Origin: Rhodanobacter sp. LX-99
GTDB taxonomy: Bacteria; Pseudomonadota; Gammaproteobacteria; Xanthomonadales; Rhodanobacteraceae
Direction of reading: 5' to 3'
Assembly: GCF_018599185.1 (NCBI RefSeq)
Contig: NZ_JAHFVL010000003.1
Span: forward strand, 310,001 to 374,000
DNA: 64,000 bases
Part shown: positions 741-47,984 of the stretch, piece by piece
Numbering within the stretch: position 1 is the stretch's first letter
Layout: each line of letters opens with the position of its first letter
Notes under the pieces: model-generated
Seen by the model: only the letters and a program-made list of their open reading frames with translations
Told to the model about the DNA's origin: nothing
Database searches by the model: none
Program-made: the position numbers and the translations under genes

Positions 741-3351
741 GACGCTGGCTCACTGGCGGGCAGCCGACACGGCCTTCGATCAGTGGCTGGACCTGCCCTA
801 CCACGAACGCGAGGCCTGGCTGGCCGCACAGACGCTGCCGGCGCCGGTGCGGCGGCGGCTCGAGCAACTGCTGGCCGCGCACCGGCAGCCGCGGGCATCG
901 CTGGACCCGTGCGGCGGCGACCTGGCCGGGTGCCGCCTCGGCGGCTGGACCCTGGAAACCGAGCTCGGCCGCGGCGGCATGGCCGTGGTCTATCGCGGCT
1001 GGCGCGAGCAGGGCGTGGCGCGGCAGCAGGCGGCGATCAAGATCCTCACCCTCGGCGCGCTCGGCATCACTGGCCGCGACCGCTTCCAGCGCGAGACGGC
1101 GATCCTCGCCCGCCTCAACCACCCAAACATCACCTCGCTGATCGACTCCGGCGTCGCCGACGACGGTACCTGCTGGCTGGCGATGCCGCTGGTCGAGGGC
1201 GAACGCATCGACCATTGGTGTGAATCGCACGCGCTCGATACGCGCGCGATCGTCCATCTTTGCCTACAGGTCTGCGACGCCGTGGCCTACGCGCACCGCA
1301 ACCTGGTGATCCATCGCGACCTCAAGCCCTCGAACGTGCTGGTCGAAGTCAGCGGCCACGTGCGCCTGCTCGATTTCGGCGTCGGCCAGTTCACCGACTC
1401 CACCGAGGAATGCACGCAGACGATGTTGCGCGCGATGACGCCCGGATACGCGGCGCCCGAACAGCTGCACGGTGCCTTGCCGAGCACCGCCATCGACATC
1501 TACGGCCTCGGCGCCCTGCTCCACCGCCTGCTCACCGGATGCACGCCGCAGACGACGGCCGAAAGCAGCCGATCCACCCGGCCTTCGCTGCTGGTCCGCG
1601 CCGACAGCGACGCCTGCCACCGCCATTACCTGCCGTTGAAAAACGACCTCGACTGGGTGCTGCTCAAGGCCTTGTCCGAAGCACCGGAGCAACGCTATCA
1701 CTCGGCCGAGGCGTTGGCCGACGACCTGCGCCGCTGGCTCGGCGGCCTGCCCGTGCTGGCGCAGAAACCGCGGCCGGGCTACCGGTTGCGCAAGTTCGTC
1801 GGTCGCCACAAGGTCGGCGTCGCCGCGGCGTGCCTACTGCTGTTCACCCTCGCCGGCGGCGTGGCGACCACGCTGTGGCAGGCGGGCATCGCCAAGGAAG
1901 AGGCGGCGAACGCGCGCGTGCAGGCGCAGCGGGCGACCCTGGTGCGCGACTTCCTGCAACACGTCTTCGAATCCACCAACCCGGATGCGGGCGGCATTCC
2001 CAGCGCGCTCGACCTGCTCGACGAAGGCGCCAGCCAGGCGCGCGAGAACATCGTCGCCAGCGATCCGCTGGCCGCCGCCGACATCCTCCACCTGACCGGG
2101 GTTTCGCGCCTGCGCCTGAACCAGCTCGATGACGCCGCGCGCGACCTCGAACAGGCGCTGGAACTGATGGCTGCCGCGGGCGGCGCCGGGCAAACCCAAG
2201 CACGCCAAGCCGGGGCCATCCACAAGGAACTGGCGCGACTGCACCGTGTGCGCGGCAACACAGCCGAAGCGATCCGCCACGCCCGCGCCGCCCTGGCCCT
2301 CGATCATCAACTGGGAACACCGGTCGCCGACCATCTGCGTGCCATGAACGCGCTGGGTATGGCGCTGGCGACCACCGCCCCGGCGGAGGCCGAAGCGCTG
2401 CACCGGCAGGCGCTGGCACGTATCGCCGGGAGCCCGCTGGAAAATTCGCGGCTGCACCTGGACACGCTCAACGGTCTTGCCGTGTCCATCGCCTTCGCCC
2501 GGCCCACGGATTTCGCCGAGCGCATCCAGCTGGAGGAAACACGCCTGCGCCTGGTCCGCGCGCTGGACGGGGAACAGAGTGGCAGTTACGCGTACACCGC
2601 CGCCGATGCCTCCACCACGATGCGCAAGGCCGGCCGGCTCGAGCGCGCCGAGGCATTGGCACGGCAGGCGGTGGAGATCACCGATCGCATCTATACCCGG
2701 CCCCACCTGCATGCGTCGCTCGCCCACTGCAACCTCGCGGCGTACCTGATGCAACGCGGCCGGCATGCGGATGCCCTCGAACACTACGAGACAAGCAGCG
2801 CGATCGACGACCGCATCAAGCGCATGGATCTGCATGCGGAATCCTGCTACCGCGGCCATGCCTATGTACTGACGGCGTTGGATCAACCCGCCCGTGCGGC
2901 CGAAGCGCTGGGCCGGAGTTCGGCCATCATCGGCAAGCACGGCTTGACCCACCAGGGCGCCGGCCTCGCCGCCTGCGGCCTGGCCGCCTCGATCCAGTGG
3001 CGCCGCGGCAAGGCGGAGGCCGCCACGCAAACGCTCGAAGGCTGCGCGCCGCCGGCCGGGATCGAGCCACCGCTGGCCTACCGGCTGGCGCAGGCCGAGC
3101 GGCACGTCCTGGGCAGCAACCACGCGGAGGCGTCACAGCTTCTCGCCGGGCTGCGCAGCGAGCTTCCGCCGGTAAGCCTCGCGCGCGACTGGCAGCGCCC
3201 CTGGATGCTGTCGCTGCTGCTGGCCCGGGACACCGGCGATGCGGCCGCCACGACAGAACTACTCGCTGGCCTGGGCGATTTCGCCGGCGTCACCCCGCTG
3301 GCGCACTGCGTCGCCGCGACCAGCCGGGCCCGCTGCACGGCGCTGCCGTAG
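730..3351 (+). CDS. Membrane serine/threonine protein kinase with TPR-like C-terminus
   Basis: An 873-residue Hanks-type kinase. The glycine loop GRGGMAVVY is at about residue 80, the ATP-binding Lys at 104 (AAIKIL), HRDLKPSN at 195-202 with catalytic Asp197, DFG at 215 (followed by VGQF) and APEQ further on, so the kinase looks catalytically complete. One transmembrane helix lies near residues 363-384. The rest is an extracytoplasmic alpha-helical region with TPR-like repeats (for example DDAARDLEQALELM and HADALEHYETSSAID). ATG 730 overlaps the end of the sigma gene. By analogy with EcfK/PknS pairs it probably senses an envelope signal and phosphorylates the sigma factor; the signal is unknown. 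Confidence 0.9.
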   Translation: MDAETLAHWRAADTAFDQWLDLPYHEREAWLAAQTLPAPVRRRLEQLLAAHRQPRASLDPCGGDLAGCRLGGWTLETELGRGGMAVVYRGWREQGVARQQAAIKILTLGALGITGRDRFQRETAILARLNHPNITSLIDSGVADDGTCWLAMPLVEGERIDHWCESHALDTRAIVHLCLQVCDAVAYAHRNLVIHRDLKPSNVLVEVSGHVRLLDFGVGQFTDSTEECTQTMLRAMTPGYAAPEQLHGALPSTAIDIYGLGALLHRLLTGCTPQTTAESSRSTRPSLLVRADSDACHRHYLPLKNDLDWVLLKALSEAPEQRYHSAEALADDLRRWLGGLPVLAQKPRPGYRLRKFVGRHKVGVAAACLLLFTLAGGVATTLWQAGIAKEEAANARVQAQRATLVRDFLQHVFESTNPDAGGIPSALDLLDEGASQARENIVASDPLAAADILHLTGVSRLRLNQLDDAARDLEQALELMAAAGGAGQTQARQAGAIHKELARLHRVRGNTAEAIRHARAALALDHQLGTPVADHLRAMNALGMALATTAPAEAEALHRQALARIAGSPLENSRLHLDTLNGLAVSIAFARPTDFAERIQLEETRLRLVRALDGEQSGSYAYTAADASTTMRKAGRLERAEALARQAVEITDRIYTRPHLHASLAHCNLAAYLMQRGRHADALEHYETSSAIDDRIKRMDLHAESCYRGHAYVLTALDQPARAAEALGRSSAIIGKHGLTHQGAGLAACGLAASIQWRRGKAEAATQTLEGCAPPAGIEPPLAYRLAQAERHVLGSNHAEASQLLAGLRSELPPVSLARDWQRPWMLSLLLARDTGDAAATTELLAGLGDFAGVTPLAHCVAATSRARCTALP

Positions 3352-43455: not shown

Positions 43456-46137
43456 TCAGCGCAGGATCGCGGCCGGATCCTGCTTCGCCTTCAGCGCGCT
43501 GCACAGCTGGATCGATTCGCCCGTCTGCGCCAGGCCGCGGCCGATGCCGGCGGCGTCCTTCTCGCGGGTCTTGAAGAACGCCTGCAGGCGATCGTACTCG
43601 GCCGTGCTGCAGCCGCCGCCACCGGCCAGCGACGGCAGCCGGCCGCCGGAGAAGCTGCCGGTGCGATCGAGGATCTGCTGGTAGTGGGCGGTGAACCAGG
43701 CCCACATCGCGTCGCGCTGGGCCAAGGTGTCGCGGCCGCCGCGCAGCAGCATGCCCATCTCGCCGACCTTCACCGGCTTGGTCAGGGCGAAGTTGCGCAC
43801 CTGCTCGGTCAGCGCCGGATCCTCCACGCTGGCCAGGCCGCCGAGGATGCCGTTGCGCAAGGCCGGGTCGCTGGTCCTGGGCAGTTCGGCGATCAACGCA
43901 TCGACCGCGCTCTTGCCGTGTTCCTGCACCGCCACGCCCAGCGCGTCGCCGAGCAGGTCGGGATCGGCGGCGGCCAGGTTCAGACGGCCATCCGCCTTCG
44001 GCTTGAGTGCCGCGTCACCCTGTTTGAGCAGGGCCGCACGCACTTCCGGCAGCTTGAAGTCGAACGCCAGCGAGCTGGCCAGGCTGCTGCGCATCAGCGC
44101 ATCGTCTTCCGGCTCGTTCGCCTTGCGCTGGTAGCCGAGCTGTTCCAGGCGCGGCAGGTAGGCCGCCTTCGCCCATTCGGCGAGGCGGGCACGTTGCGCA
44201 TCGTTTGCGGCGATGCGGTGGTAGAGCTGCGCCGCCTGGCCCAGCGGCACGGTGGCCACTTCGCGGATTTTCGAAGCGGTCAACGGCTGCAGTGCGGCCA
44301 GCATGTCGCCGGCATCGAGGTCGCCATGGCGGAAGCTGGCGCCGATCGCGTCGGCGTAGGCGAGTTGCTCGGCATCGCTGAGCTTGCCGATCTGCTTGAC
44401 CAGCGCGCCCAGTTCCGACTTGTCGAGGCTGAAGCGGTAATAGCCGCTGGCGTTCGCGTTCGGCATGATCCAGGTCGGCGTGCTGGCGCCGGCCAGCACC
44501 ATCGAGCCGGTCGCCTTGTCGAGCATTTCGCAAGCCACCTTGCTGCCGTCGGCGGTACCGTAGCGCACGCATACCGGCACTCCCCAGATGCGCTGCGGAT
44601 CGCCGCTGCTGCCGAGCGGCAGGTAGCGGCTCTGGCTCAGCTGCAGCACGGTCTGGCCGTTTTTCTGTTCCAGCTTCGTGGCCACGTATGGCACGCCGGA
44701 CTGGTCGAGGAAGCTCTTGAACGCGTGCTTGAACGCGTCGCCCTTGTCCGCCGCGGTGGCGATCGCCGAGACCAGGTCGTCGGCGGTGGCGTTGCCGTAC
44801 TTCTGGCTCTGGATGTACGCGCGCATGCCCTTCTGGTAGGTCTTCTCGCCCACGTAGTTCTCGAACATGCCGATGACGCTGGCGCCCTTCTGGTAGGTGA
44901 TGCCGTCGAACGCGGTCATGATGTCGCCGTTGCCGGTGATCGGCTGGCGGATGCTGCGCGCGCTGACCAGGCTGTCATTGTTCATCGCGCCCTGGCCGCC
45001 GCGCACGCGGTCGAGGTCGGCGCGGTATTCCGGGTGCACCTGCATGGTCACCTTCTGCTGCATCCAGGTGGCGAACGCCTCGTTGAGCCAGATGTCGTTC
45101 CACCATTCGGTGGTCACCGTGTCGCCGGTCCACTGGTGGGCCAGCTCATGCGCGTTGACGTTGAACGAGCCCTGCACGTTGCGCGCCGGCGAATCCTTGT
45201 CGATCAGCAGCAGCCAGTCGCGGAAAGTGACCAGGCCCGGGTTCTCCATCGCGCCCGCCTCGAAATCCGGTGCGGCCAGCAGGTCGAGCTTGTCGAACGG
45301 ATAGCCGAAGCCGTAGTAGTTCTCCAGCGCGTGGATGATGCTCGGCGTTTCGCCCAGCACGTGCTTCATGCGCTGCCCCTCGCCCTTGGCGGCGATGCCG
45401 CGCAGTTGCAGCGGCTTGACCCGATAAGCGGTCGGCGAGATGTCCGGGCCGGCGACGATGTCCCACGGACCGACCGCGAACGCGACCAGGTAGGTCGGCA
45501 GCGGCAGCGTCTGCGCGAACGTCACGGTCTTCCAGCCCTTGCCGGCCGGCTGCTCCTTCACCTGCTGGGTGTTCGCCACCACGTTTTCGTGGTCGGGCAC
45601 GGTGATGCTGAGATCGAACGGGGTCTTGAAGCCGGGCTCGTCGAAACCGGGGAAGGCGAAGCGCGCGCTGATCGGTTCCATCTGCGTCATCGCGTACGGC
45701 TGGCCCTTGGCGGTGACCTTGTACAGGCCCTGCAGCTGCGCGTTGAGCGGTGCGGTGTACTCGAACCTGAGGGTCAGCTGCTGCGGCTTGAGGCTGCTGC
45801 CGAAATCCACCCGCGCCACGCCGGCCTTCGGATCCACCGCGACGTACTTGCCGGCGTGCGCCTTGCCGGCGGCGTCGGTGATCGTCACCTTCGACACCTT
45901 CAACTCGGCGCCGTCCAGCCACAGGTGGTCGGAGGCCTGGGTCAGCTTGACCTTGATCGTGGTGGTGCCGGAGAAATCCTGCTGCGCCGGATCGACCTTG
46001 AACGCCAGCTGGTACGACTGCGGCACGGCCCAGCCGGGCAAGCGGCCCTGCGGCGCCTGGTCGGCGGTGGCGGCAAATGCCGCGCCACAGCAGGCGGCCA
46101 GCGCGGTGAGCAGAAGAGGACGGGCGAGTCGGCGCAT
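43456..46137 (-). CDS. M1-family metallopeptidase (aminopeptidase N type), exported
   Basis: An 893-residue zinc aminopeptidase that trims N-terminal residues from peptides. The exopeptidase motif GAMEN is at 295-299 and the zinc site HELAHQW at 330-336 (His330, His334) with the third ligand in NEAFA at about Glu353. The C-terminal half is the long helical domain of the family. Unlike cytoplasmic E. coli PepN it has a signal peptide (PLLLTALAACCGAAFA), so it acts in the periplasm or outside. AGGGA precedes ATG 46137. It is the reverse-strand neighbour of oxyR; a terminator lies in between. Confidence 0.94.
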   Translation of the reverse strand: MRRLARPLLLTALAACCGAAFAATADQAPQGRLPGWAVPQSYQLAFKVDPAQQDFSGTTTIKVKLTQASDHLWLDGAELKVSKVTITDAAGKAHAGKYVAVDPKAGVARVDFGSSLKPQQLTLRFEYTAPLNAQLQGLYKVTAKGQPYAMTQMEPISARFAFPGFDEPGFKTPFDLSITVPDHENVVANTQQVKEQPAGKGWKTVTFAQTLPLPTYLVAFAVGPWDIVAGPDISPTAYRVKPLQLRGIAAKGEGQRMKHVLGETPSIIHALENYYGFGYPFDKLDLLAAPDFEAGAMENPGLVTFRDWLLLIDKDSPARNVQGSFNVNAHELAHQWTGDTVTTEWWNDIWLNEAFATWMQQKVTMQVHPEYRADLDRVRGGQGAMNNDSLVSARSIRQPITGNGDIMTAFDGITYQKGASVIGMFENYVGEKTYQKGMRAYIQSQKYGNATADDLVSAIATAADKGDAFKHAFKSFLDQSGVPYVATKLEQKNGQTVLQLSQSRYLPLGSSGDPQRIWGVPVCVRYGTADGSKVACEMLDKATGSMVLAGASTPTWIMPNANASGYYRFSLDKSELGALVKQIGKLSDAEQLAYADAIGASFRHGDLDAGDMLAALQPLTASKIREVATVPLGQAAQLYHRIAANDAQRARLAEWAKAAYLPRLEQLGYQRKANEPEDDALMRSSLASSLAFDFKLPEVRAALLKQGDAALKPKADGRLNLAAADPDLLGDALGVAVQEHGKSAVDALIAELPRTSDPALRNGILGGLASVEDPALTEQVRNFALTKPVKVGEMGMLLRGGRDTLAQRDAMWAWFTAHYQQILDRTGSFSGGRLPSLAGGGGCSTAEYDRLQAFFKTREKDAAGIGRGLAQTGESIQLCSALKAKQDPAAILR

Positions 46138-46265
46138 GGTGATTTCCCTGGGTACGTGGAGAACCTCCAAAGCTAGAGCCGGCATGACCTTCGACCCAGT
46201 GCCAGAAGGCATGCCCGGGGGGCCGGCACGCGTGATCCAGGACCGTCCGCGAGGGAATCCCGAAC

Positions 46266-46301
46266 AAAAAAAACCGGCGACGAAGCAAGCTTCATCACCG
46301 G
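46266..46301 (-). terminator. Intrinsic terminator with U8 (minus strand)
   Basis: On the minus strand a 13-bp stem (CCGGTGATGAAGC with GCTTCGTCGCCGG, two wobble pairs, 2-nt loop) is directly followed by eight T (46273-46266). It stands upstream of pepN and far from the end of any minus-strand protein gene, so it must end a short non-coding or leader transcript. Confidence 0.8.
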
Positions 46302-46374
46302 CCGGGGAAGCCCGCGCGCCTGCGGGGGAGAGGGAGGGGGAGCTCCGGCGCGCGGGGTGTCACGAGCACAACGT
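46266..46374 (-). ncRNA. Candidate OxyR-controlled small RNA divergent from oxyR
   Basis: A predicted 109-nt transcript read opposite to oxyR. From 5' to 3' it has a ~18-nt single-stranded leader, then a perfect 10-bp stem (46347-46356 with 46311-46320, CCCGCGCGCC/GGCGCGCGGG). The 26-nt loop (46346-46321) contains a long C/U-rich run, well suited to pair with purine-rich ribosome sites. A short linker and an intrinsic terminator hairpin with eight U follow. A candidate promoter and a tandem OxyR-type motif lie just upstream. No coding potential is evident. Enterobacterial OxyS has the same position and size but unrelated sequence. The alternative is an attenuated leader of pepN, whose ATG lies 129 bp beyond. 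Transcription is not shown. Confidence 0.5.
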
Positions 46375-46380
46375 GGGCAC

Positions 46381-46410
46381 AGGATAGGACCCTCGCTTGC
46401 ATTGCTCCAA
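46381..46410 (-). promoter_or_regulatory. Candidate sigma-70 promoter for the divergent small RNA
   Basis: On the minus strand TTGGAG (46410-46405) and TATCCT (46386-46381) are separated by 18 bp. The match to consensus is moderate, as is common for activator-dependent promoters. The expected start is near 46374. The OxyR-type motif ends exactly at the -35 element. Confidence 0.4.
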
Positions 46411-46446
46411 TTGATTGTTACCATCCCAGCCATAGCGTATGGCTAT
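46410..46446. promoter_or_regulatory. Tandem OxyR-type binding motif at oxyR
   Basis: Two 15-bp elements, ATTGATTGTTACCAT and ATAGCGTATGGCTAT, are separated by 7 bp, the spacing of the E. coli OxyR consensus (ATAGntnnnanCTAT twice). I count 15 of 20 conserved positions matching. The site lies 19 bp before the oxyR ATG and abuts the -35 of the divergent candidate promoter, which fits autorepression of oxyR and activation of the divergent transcript. Confidence 0.55.
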
Positions 46447-46465
46447 TGCCAAGCCGGGACGATCC

Positions 46466-47437
46466 ATGAACCTGCGCGATCTCCAGTACCTGGTGGCCCT
46501 GGCCGAACATCGGCACTTCGGCCGCGCGGCCGAGGCCTGCTTCGTCAGCCAGCCCACCCTGTCCACCCAGATCAAGAAGCTGGAAGAGGAACTGGGCGTG
46601 CCGCTGGTCGAGCGCACACCGCGCAAGGTGCTGCTGACCGAGGTCGGCCGCGACATCGCCATCCGCGCGCGCGACGTGCTCAACGGGATCGAACAGATCC
46701 GCAGCGTGGCCCGGCGCACGCTGGACCCCGAATCCGGCACGGTGCGGTTGGGCATCTTCCCCACCCTGGGTCCGTACCTGCTGCCGCACGCGTTGCCGCT
46801 GGTGCGCAAGGCATTCCCCAAGCTGGAGCTGCTGCTGGTCGAGGAAAAGACCGAGGCCGTGCTGCGCCTGTTGCGCGAGGGCAAACTCGACGCCGGCATC
46901 CTCGCCCTGCCGCTGCACGAGGACAGCCTGCATACCGAGTTCCTGTTCGAAGAGCCCTTCCTGCTGGCCGTGTCGGAAGCCCATCCGCTGGCGCACAAGC
47001 AAGGTCAGCTGAAACTGGCCGACCTGTCCAACCAGAACCTGCTGCTGCTGGAAGACGGCCACTGCCTGCGCGACCAGGCGCTGGAGGTGTGCCACCTTGC
47101 CGGCGCCGCCGAACGCAGCGGGTTCCGCGCCACCAGCCTGGAGACGCTGCGACAGATGGTGGCGGCGAACGTCGGCATCACCCTGCTGCCGGTCACCGCC
47201 GTGAAGCCGCCCGTGGCGCCGCTGGACAACCTGCACCTGATCGAGTTCAAGGGCCATCCGCCGAGCCGGCGCATCGCCATGGTCTGGCGCAAGAGCTCGG
47301 CGATGGACGGCTTCCTGAAACGGCTGGCGGCCGTGTTCCGGCAGTTGCCGACGGATCTGCTGAACCCGCATACGGCAGCCTCGCCTGCGGTACCGGCGGA
47401 ACCCGTCCGTCCCGCGCGCAAGGCGGCGCGCCGATAG
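46466..47437 (+). CDS. oxyR: Hydrogen-peroxide-responsive LysR regulator OxyR
   Basis: A 323-residue LysR-type regulator that switches peroxide-defence genes through a disulfide. The DNA-binding domain is MNLRDLQYLVALAEHRHFGR with CFVSQPTLSTQIKKLEEELG. The redox loop LLLLEDGHCLRDQALEVCH carries Cys200 and Cys209, equivalent to E. coli Cys199 and Cys208. The C-terminal ~25 residues are a basic Pro/Ala-rich extension. ATG 46466 gives the family N-terminus; nine extra in-frame codons upstream are less likely. It is divergent from pepN and upstream of the rubrerythrin operon. Confidence 0.96.
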   Translation: MNLRDLQYLVALAEHRHFGRAAEACFVSQPTLSTQIKKLEEELGVPLVERTPRKVLLTEVGRDIAIRARDVLNGIEQIRSVARRTLDPESGTVRLGIFPTLGPYLLPHALPLVRKAFPKLELLLVEEKTEAVLRLLREGKLDAGILALPLHEDSLHTEFLFEEPFLLAVSEAHPLAHKQGQLKLADLSNQNLLLLEDGHCLRDQALEVCHLAGAAERSGFRATSLETLRQMVAANVGITLLPVTAVKPPVAPLDNLHLIEFKGHPPSRRIAMVWRKSSAMDGFLKRLAAVFRQLPTDLLNPHTAASPAVPAEPVRPARKAARR

Positions 47438-47470
47438 CTGCAGGCTATTTGCCCGATCCAGACAATCAAT
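47434..47470 (+). promoter_or_regulatory. Tandem OxyR-type motif upstream of the rubrerythrin operon
   Basis: ATAGCTGCAGGCTAT matches nine of ten conserved positions of an OxyR half-site; a weaker second element ATCCAGACAATCAAT follows after 7 bp, together 15 of 20. It begins inside the oxyR stop codon. Directly downstream a weak -35 (TTTCAG, 47470-47475) and -10 (TAGGCT, 47494-47499) are 18 bp apart, the same geometry as at the divergent small-RNA promoter. Confidence 0.5.
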
Positions 47471-47564
47471 TTCAGCATTCGCCCGCCGCGCGCTAGGCTC
47501 GGCAGGTCACGACCATGAAGGCCGCACTCGCAACCCTCCCAGCCCAACGCCACGAGGTGATGTC

Positions 47565-47984
47565 ATGAGCAACCTGAAAGGATCCAAGACCGAGCAGAAC
47601 CTGAAGGACGCCTTTGCCGGCGAGTCGATGGCGAACCGCCGCTACCTGTACTTCGCCGCCAAGGCCGACGTGGAGGGCTACAACGACGTCTCCGCGGTGT
47701 TTCGCTCCACCGCCGAAGGCGAGACCGGCCACGCCCACGGCCACCTGGAATACCTCGAAGCGGTGGGCGACCCCGCCACCGGCCTGCCGTTCGGCGGCAC
47801 CCAGCTGAACCTGAAAAGCGCCATCGCCGGCGAAACCCACGAGTACACCGACATGTACCCGGGCATGAGCAAGGCCGCGCGCGAGGAAGGCTTCGACGAG
47901 ATCGCCGACTGGTTCGAGACCCTGGCCAAGGCCGAGCGCTCGCACGCGAACCGCTTCACCAAGGCGCTGGGCGAACTGGGCTGA
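47565..47984 (+). CDS. Rubrerythrin-family diiron protein without rubredoxin domain
   Basis: A 139-residue four-helix diiron protein. Ligand residues are in AGE20, EGE53TGH56, AGE90THE93 and AE124RSH127. Rubrerythrins reduce hydrogen peroxide at the diiron site. The C-terminal rubredoxin domain of classical rubrerythrin is absent, so electrons must come from another protein, perhaps the Fe-S protein encoded next. GAGGTGATGTC precedes the ATG. Position after oxyR and an OxyR-type motif supports a peroxide-defence role. Confidence 0.92.

Follow-up and report, generated by a model that had tools for sequence, protein, structure and literature searches.

OxyS of Escherichia coli and its kin is an OxyR-induced small RNA (sRNA) of 109 nt, according to the cited part of its source (PMC8141631), and sX13 of Xanthomonas, in the cited part of another (PMC3771888), represses mRNAs that have G-rich motifs near their starts in an Hfq-independent manner. 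CcsR1-4 and SorX of Rhodobacter are stress sRNAs derived from 3' untranslated regions (3'UTRs), with CcsR being processed from the ccaF1 mRNA. CcsR carries a C/U-rich motif, and the CcsR/cuckoo RNAs are known for the CCUCCUCCC motif and a link to DUF1127 host genes. Here, we analyzed a 64,000-nucleotide stretch of the Rhodanobacter sp. LX-99 genome (contig NZ_JAHFVL010000003.1, positions 310,001 to 374,000; hereafter, the window), in which a predicted small RNA is divergent from and adjoins oxyR. This RNA is probably a stand-alone, OxyR-driven sRNA that was made from the leftovers of the peroxiredoxin gene ahpC. Among the open-licence papers listed in our literature search, none dealt with an RNA at the oxyR-pepN locus.

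The window RNA resembles OxyS in its place beside oxyR, in its predicted length of 109 nt, and in having a conserved OxyR-type operator and a promoter, from which activation by OxyR is predicted. In contrast to OxyS, it belongs to another bacterial order, has other neighbor genes, and presents one large C/U-rich loop; moreover, its source is the ahpC gene paired with ahpD, and the same element is found in ahpC-bearing relatives. An Rfam search of positions 45500-47500 returned four matches at an expect (E) value of at most 5, and no family fits; the OxyS model was not among these matches, and homology with OxyS was rejected on this ground. The best overlapping match, anti-hemB (RF02837), also combines a C/U-rich loop with a terminator, but the window RNA, which scores 14.6 bits where the cut-off is 49.5 (E 3.6), was rejected as a member. 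With sX13, the window RNA shares a C-rich apical loop on a strong stem; however, sX13 consists of three C-rich stem-loops and adjoins polA (cited part of PMC3771888), whereas the window RNA has one C/U-rich loop plus a terminator, and both it and 44 of 50 fetched matches to our covariance model lie at oxyR. Closer to sX13 in shape are the RNAs of Dyella ginsengisoli, D. lutea, and a related metagenome-assembled genome (MAG) (L051, L055, and L054; approximately 2690-2920, minus strand), which are weak model matches, fused in the sense given below, with a predicted length of approximately 160 nt and several C-rich loops. As with 3'UTR-derived sRNAs, the element occupies the 3' end of a message in relatives, namely that of ahpC; unlike in CcsR, the host gene is ahpC and is lost in the window, so the promoter would make the RNA directly. 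The cuckoo-RNA motif was absent, by eye, from all 53 loops of the distinct model matches, and the host gene is not DUF1127.

Probable Origin of the RNA at the ahpC-ahpD Locus

A similarity search over relatives returned several genomes in which the part holding the RNA matched approximately 700 nt from the part holding oxyR. At such loci, the operator and the RNA are separated by ahpC, and ahpD comes next after the RNA; the order, with oxyR pointing away, is oxyR, OxyR-like site, ahpC, element, ahpD, and pepN. The operator and promoter of the window RNA align with the ahpC promoter, i.e., with the sequence upstream of ahpC in L041 and others. Both ahpC and ahpD are absent at oxyR in the window's genome, and the ahpC promoter reads directly into the element, a state that we call fused. 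All 19 model matches examined in ahpC-bearing relatives are located between ahpC and ahpD, that is, in the 3' end of the mRNA. This RNA-bearing ahpC form occurs in Luteibacter, some Dyella, and some Rhodanobacter, and ahpC-ahpD is also found beside oxyR in Lysobacter, Dokdonella, Oleiagrimonas, and Rudaea loci. Because outgroup genera have the pair beside oxyR, the order with ahpC-ahpD is taken to be the likely ancestral one, and the change to be a loss. The first-pass annotation of this DNA had proposed an OxyR-linked sRNA, and the sequence supports such a predicted unit, which runs divergently from oxyR and combines a conserved OxyR-like site with a C/U-rich loop on a covarying stem and a terminator; its origin, however, had been missed, as the element is the ahpC 3' end in relatives and the promoter is the old ahpC promoter.

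We propose that the divergent promoter of the ancestor served OxyR-activated transcription of ahpC, and that the ahpC message would have ended in, or run through, the conserved stem-loop with its C/U-rich loop and the terminator, ahead of ahpD. Deletion would then have removed ahpC and ahpD from the lineage of the window, with the promoter and 3' element retained and joined, such that oxidized OxyR would directly drive an RNA of approximately 109 nt, transcribed from 46374 and presumably functioning in trans. Because the element lay between the two genes, one deletion that took both would have taken the element too; for it to survive, DNA must have been deleted on each side of it, or rearranged. 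In one MAG (L060, 2000-2337, minus strand), the ahpC-ahpD spacer of 337 bases has repeated stretches and is without the RNA.

The covariance model was built from 29 sequences and run on whole genomes regardless of context, with stricter filters in the searches over 40 genomes; rows above E 5 and one opposite-strand match were dropped from the first match list. Of the 233 genomes of the family, 78 gave a match at E <= 1e-3; nine of the 78 have only weak ones (E 4.9e-6 and weaker), and three of these nine were unfetched. Matching Rhodanobacter genomes number 36 and matching genomes outside the genus 42; the 50 fetched matches were drawn from 30 and 20 of these, respectively. Of the 44 located at oxyR, 19 are between ahpC and ahpD and 25 are without ahpC. 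Every one of the 30 Rhodanobacter loci fetched is at oxyR, 11 with the match between ahpC and ahpD and the other 19 fused, although many are training sequences that match by construction and hence indicate a single site per genome, not an independent find. Outside the genus, the 14 strongest of the 20 matches are at oxyR (eight between ahpC and ahpD, six without ahpC), and 12 of these 14 were not in the training set, the exceptions being L179 and L181 (the same as training rows L102 and L081). The six weakest (E 4.9e-6 and weaker) are not at oxyR and were taken as false; the E-value gap between oxyR-linked and unlinked matches is narrow (3.2e-6 vs. 4.9e-6).

Of the 45 Rhodanobacter genomes, 15 possess an ahpC ortholog (at least 89% identity), and these 15 are also the ones with ahpD. 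The best match in the other 30 is another AhpC, with 37-40% identity over residues 26-177 (E approximately 1e-32 to 1e-36), and no match of this second class was listed for the 15 ahpC-bearing genomes, whose next matches had E values of 1e-23 or weaker. In the window's genome, the one among the 30 for which the ahpCF type was established, the second AhpC heads an ahpCF operon at another locus (AhpC, 345 bits; AhpF, 798 bits; both over the cut-off), and ahpCF appears to have taken the place of ahpCD. An OxyR-like site (13/20) is found upstream of this operon (L171, 7849-10245). A match to the RNA was obtained for 12 of the 15 ahpC-bearing genomes and for 24 of the 30 that lack the ortholog.

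Architecture, Conservation, and Covariation

The features of the locus are given in Table 1. Direct reading confirmed what the first-pass annotation had described: the tandem motif with OxyR spacing (15 of 20 bases, scored against what we take to be the OxyR consensus), the perfect 10-bp stem (arms 46356-46347 and 46320-46311, 10/10 pairs) with its C/U-rich loop, and the terminator, with a hairpin at 46303-46272 (14 pairs, G-U allowed) and eight U at 46273-46266. The -10 predicts an RNA start near 46374; the -35 is weak, and a strict sigma-70 scan found no promoter for the RNA. The rest of the window contains one more OxyR-like site at 15/20 and one at 13/20, and none of at least 13/20 was found in a 400-kb sample of the window's genome. 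The covariance model matches the window RNA at 46361-46266 with 94.6 bits. Paralogs were set aside, as the genome as a whole gives a single match at E <= 0.01; the next matches within the window score 14.9 bits (the terminator read backwards) and lower.

Table 1. Predicted features of the oxyR-pepN region (window positions)
Feature	Position	Strand	Remarks
Predicted 109-nt small RNA	46266-46374	-	Start predicted from -10, end from U tract
Tandem OxyR-like operator between oxyR and RNA	46410-46446	-	15/20 consensus bases
Promoter of RNA, former ahpC promoter	46381-46410	-	-35-like TTGGAG at operator edge; -10 TATCCT at 46386-46381
Stem-loop 1	46311-46356	-	10-bp covarying stem; 26-nt C/U-rich loop at 46346-46321
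Intrinsic terminator hairpin and eight U	46266-46303	-	Covarying
oxyR, LysR family	46466-47437	+	Best NCBIfam match OxyR NF008361, 316.7 bits, just below cut-off 329
pepN-like M1 aminopeptidase	43456-46137	-	Downstream neighbor of RNA; own conserved upstream block
Promoter-like block of pepN	46173-46215	-	Conserved; present with and without RNA

Over 20 fused Rhodanobacter loci, with gaps counted as mismatches and the stem-arm borders one base off, identity is 0.84-0.86 in the stem arms, 0.88 in the U tract, 0.71 in the loop, and 0.68 in the terminator hairpin, with 0.44 in the leader and 0.21 in the spacer behind the terminator. The operator has a mean pairwise identity of 0.76 over these loci, and the RNA promoter aligns gap-free at 0.73. 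For the alignment of 29 sequences, seven of 36 candidates were set aside because of loop inserts or weak similarity (L097, L091, L017, L087, L018, L053, and L096). In this alignment, 97.5% of the cells are paired, and both partners have changed in 11 of the 22 pairs, compared with 4.3 in shuffles. Seven of these pairs are in the terminator and four in stem 1. The 20 fused rows alone, in which L102 is one column out of register, gave nine such pairs compared with 4.3 in shuffles (two in stem 1, seven in the terminator). The 53 distinct matches, whose alignment was fitted to the model and hence leans to it, gave 15 compared with 8.1 (six in stem 1, nine in the terminator), with 98 double-changed cells compared with 17.2. 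In two Dyella species (L091, 2142-2246, and L097, 2117-2221; minus strand), an inner hairpin is inserted in the loop, with the C/U part retained.

The RNA might also consist of functionless GC-rich hairpins that stand upstream of pepN by chance, inasmuch as GC-rich DNA folds readily, unrelated hairpins occur in some ahpC-ahpD spacers, and the terminator count is at chance level: the 45800-46900 region has one terminator-like site and shuffles of the same stretch average 0.9, so the count alone proves nothing. Covariation compared with shuffled and slid controls, the same locus in 44 of the 50 fetched matches, and conservation above that of the flanks make this explanation very improbable, and it is strongly disfavored already. 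The folding energy of the 109-nt RNA is -49.3 kcal/mol (z -3.4), with 0 of 200 shuffles as good.

CUCCC and CCCC are held by the loop in 53 of the 53 distinct matches, and CCUCCC in 46, and the model itself favors such loops; C/U-rich loops between ahpC and ahpD in L069, L107, and L048 were noticed by eye and left uncounted. The loop may instead be a protein site, either for a pyrimidine-binding protein or Rho, or through a GGA that binds RsmA/CsrA, with the RNA being a sponge. GGA is found on the 5' side of the loop in many sequences, and RsmU, a 3'UTR-derived RsmA-binding sRNA, is known in Xanthomonas (cited part of PMC7694677). We regard a protein site as improbable, however, as GGA is present in only 30 of the 53 loops, compared with CUCCC in all, and the window's loop has one GGA; an RsmA sponge was rejected on the same count. 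A protein hidden in the RNA was rejected as well, the loop length modulo 3 being 0, 1, and 2 in 13, 18, and 22 of the 53 distinct sequences, respectively.

Downstream, the block between the RNA and pepN (TGCCTTCTGGCACTGGGTCGAAGGTCATG...CTAGC) has 0.83 identity over the 20 fused loci and shows one-base indels toward its end; judging by its conservation, it is probably a pepN promoter or operator. This block speaks against the RNA being simply a pepN leader: it gives pepN an upstream region of its own, seen also in loci without the RNA, and a leader was rejected on this ground and because the 248-nt fold running on into pepN is unexceptional (z -1.42, 20 of 200 shuffles as good). The closest named oxyR genes to that of the window are from Rhodanobacter. 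Directly after oxyR, at 47434-47470, is the second tandem OxyR-like site with 15/20 bases, upstream of a rubrerythrin gene (47565-47984, plus strand), suggesting that the OxyR regulon includes rubrerythrin.

Possible Repeated Fusion and Retention of the Promoter

On an oxyR tree of 42 RNA-bearing loci, the fused versus ahpC state needs six changes (bootstrap, five to seven), three of which are forced by well-supported branches, and on a tree of 81 loci the fused state needs seven (five forced). In the latter, L051, L054, and L055 (weak matches, E 4e-5 to 3e-4) were scored as fused, and L058 (E 6e-5), with its match far from oxyR, was not. Loci were scored as lacking ahpC when the fetched DNA showed no AhpC ortholog; L090, with 203 bases upstream of oxyR, and L105, with 723 bases, were poorly scorable, and L094 has a 41% AhpC-like gene there. 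In L034 and L072, the loop of the fused RNA is of the AGGAGU type, as in their ahpC-bearing neighbors, and not of the GGAGU/GGAGC type of the window's group, which speaks for separate fusions. A -10 with at least four matches to TATAAT is present in 11 of 17 fused named loci compared with 3 of 35 loci lacking both ahpC and the RNA (Fisher p 5e-5, with the window excluded and kinship uncorrected), and by eye the same -10 erosion is seen in L024 and L029.

Mode of Action and Evidence for a cis Role

By analogy with sX13, the C/U-rich loop might pair with G-rich translation-start sites and lower expression under peroxide stress, which we tentatively put forward as the likeliest mode of action. 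The repression of messages with GGGGAGG-like starts, which had been predicted for this RNA, found no support in our tests. In a ribosome-site test of 273 crudely called genes, taken from 20 stretches of 20 kb and the window, loop-complement matches of at least 6 occurred in 32 genes at -25 to -1, in 7 at -60 to -36, and in 4 to 9 inside genes, compared with 28 genes for the reversed string; at matches of at least 7, 10 genes were found compared with 14 for the reversed string. Because the reversed string scores alike, the ribosome-site signal reflects generic purine richness. A 12-nt loop complement with at most one mismatch gave 12 sites in the window's genome compared with 27 for its backward control, and one of the 12 is the locus of the RNA itself. 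Among the other 11, the site in L207 is followed after 3 nt by an ATG, whose frame stays open as far as the stretch reaches (499 codons); the remaining sites lack a start or are followed by short frames or by a frame that opens with GTG/TTG (133 and 179 codons). At the gene starts checked, no such complement was found.

The lack of a specific target signal for the loop in these complementarity tests is one of several points that weigh against an sRNA made from ahpC leftovers. In the fused rows, further pair types are not above those in shuffles (17 vs. 17.4; 396 of 500 as high), and the tree changes alone do not separate loss of ahpCD from its regain. The -10 with at least four matches, a crude mark, is also present in 6 of 13 ahpC-bearing loci with the RNA and in 13 of 15 without it. 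No RNA match was obtained, under strict filters, in 3 of the 15 ahpC-bearing and 6 of the 30 ahpC-less Rhodanobacter genomes, and the RNA therefore seems dispensable there. In addition, the majority of double changes are in the terminator helix, as would be expected if the element were the cis-acting 3' end of the old ahpC message, a stabilizer plus terminator that was kept by chance or shields pepN from the leftover promoter. The place of the element at the ahpC 3' end before ahpD in relatives fits such a role, as a partial terminator could set the ahpC:ahpD ratio. A terminator alone, however, needs neither the upstream stem nor the C/U loop, both of which are far better conserved than the spacer, and the -10 is retained more often where the RNA alone remains than where ahpC and the RNA are both gone. 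A purely cis-acting element is hence unlikely, though somewhat less so than a protein site, and the stand-alone sRNA is the reading that we prefer.

The origin of new bacterial sRNAs is an open question, since the intermediates are usually gone. Krieger et al. 2022 reportedly trace a peroxide-responding sRNA to a source of this kind, with OxyS derived from a peroxidase mRNA beside oxyR. The origin of OxyS may match the one proposed here and, if so, the path would have been taken independently in Rhodanobacteraceae, with intermediates still living. We give about even weight to the broader proposition that OxyS-like sRNAs have repeatedly arisen from peroxidase genes next to oxyR, in which case the ahpC promoter and 3' element would have been joined several times in Rhodanobacteraceae as ahpCD was given up (for ahpCF in the window's genome), with species from before the loss extant, in convergence with the proposed enterobacterial origin of OxyS. 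Within one family, there are loci whose ahpC carries the RNA at its 3' end, loci that have kept the RNA and the ahpC promoter without the gene, and loci in which neither ahpC nor the RNA is left; this series makes it possible to ask cleanly whether a 3' end already acts as an sRNA while its gene is still present. If true, the window RNA would be an OxyS-like regulator outside the enterobacteria.
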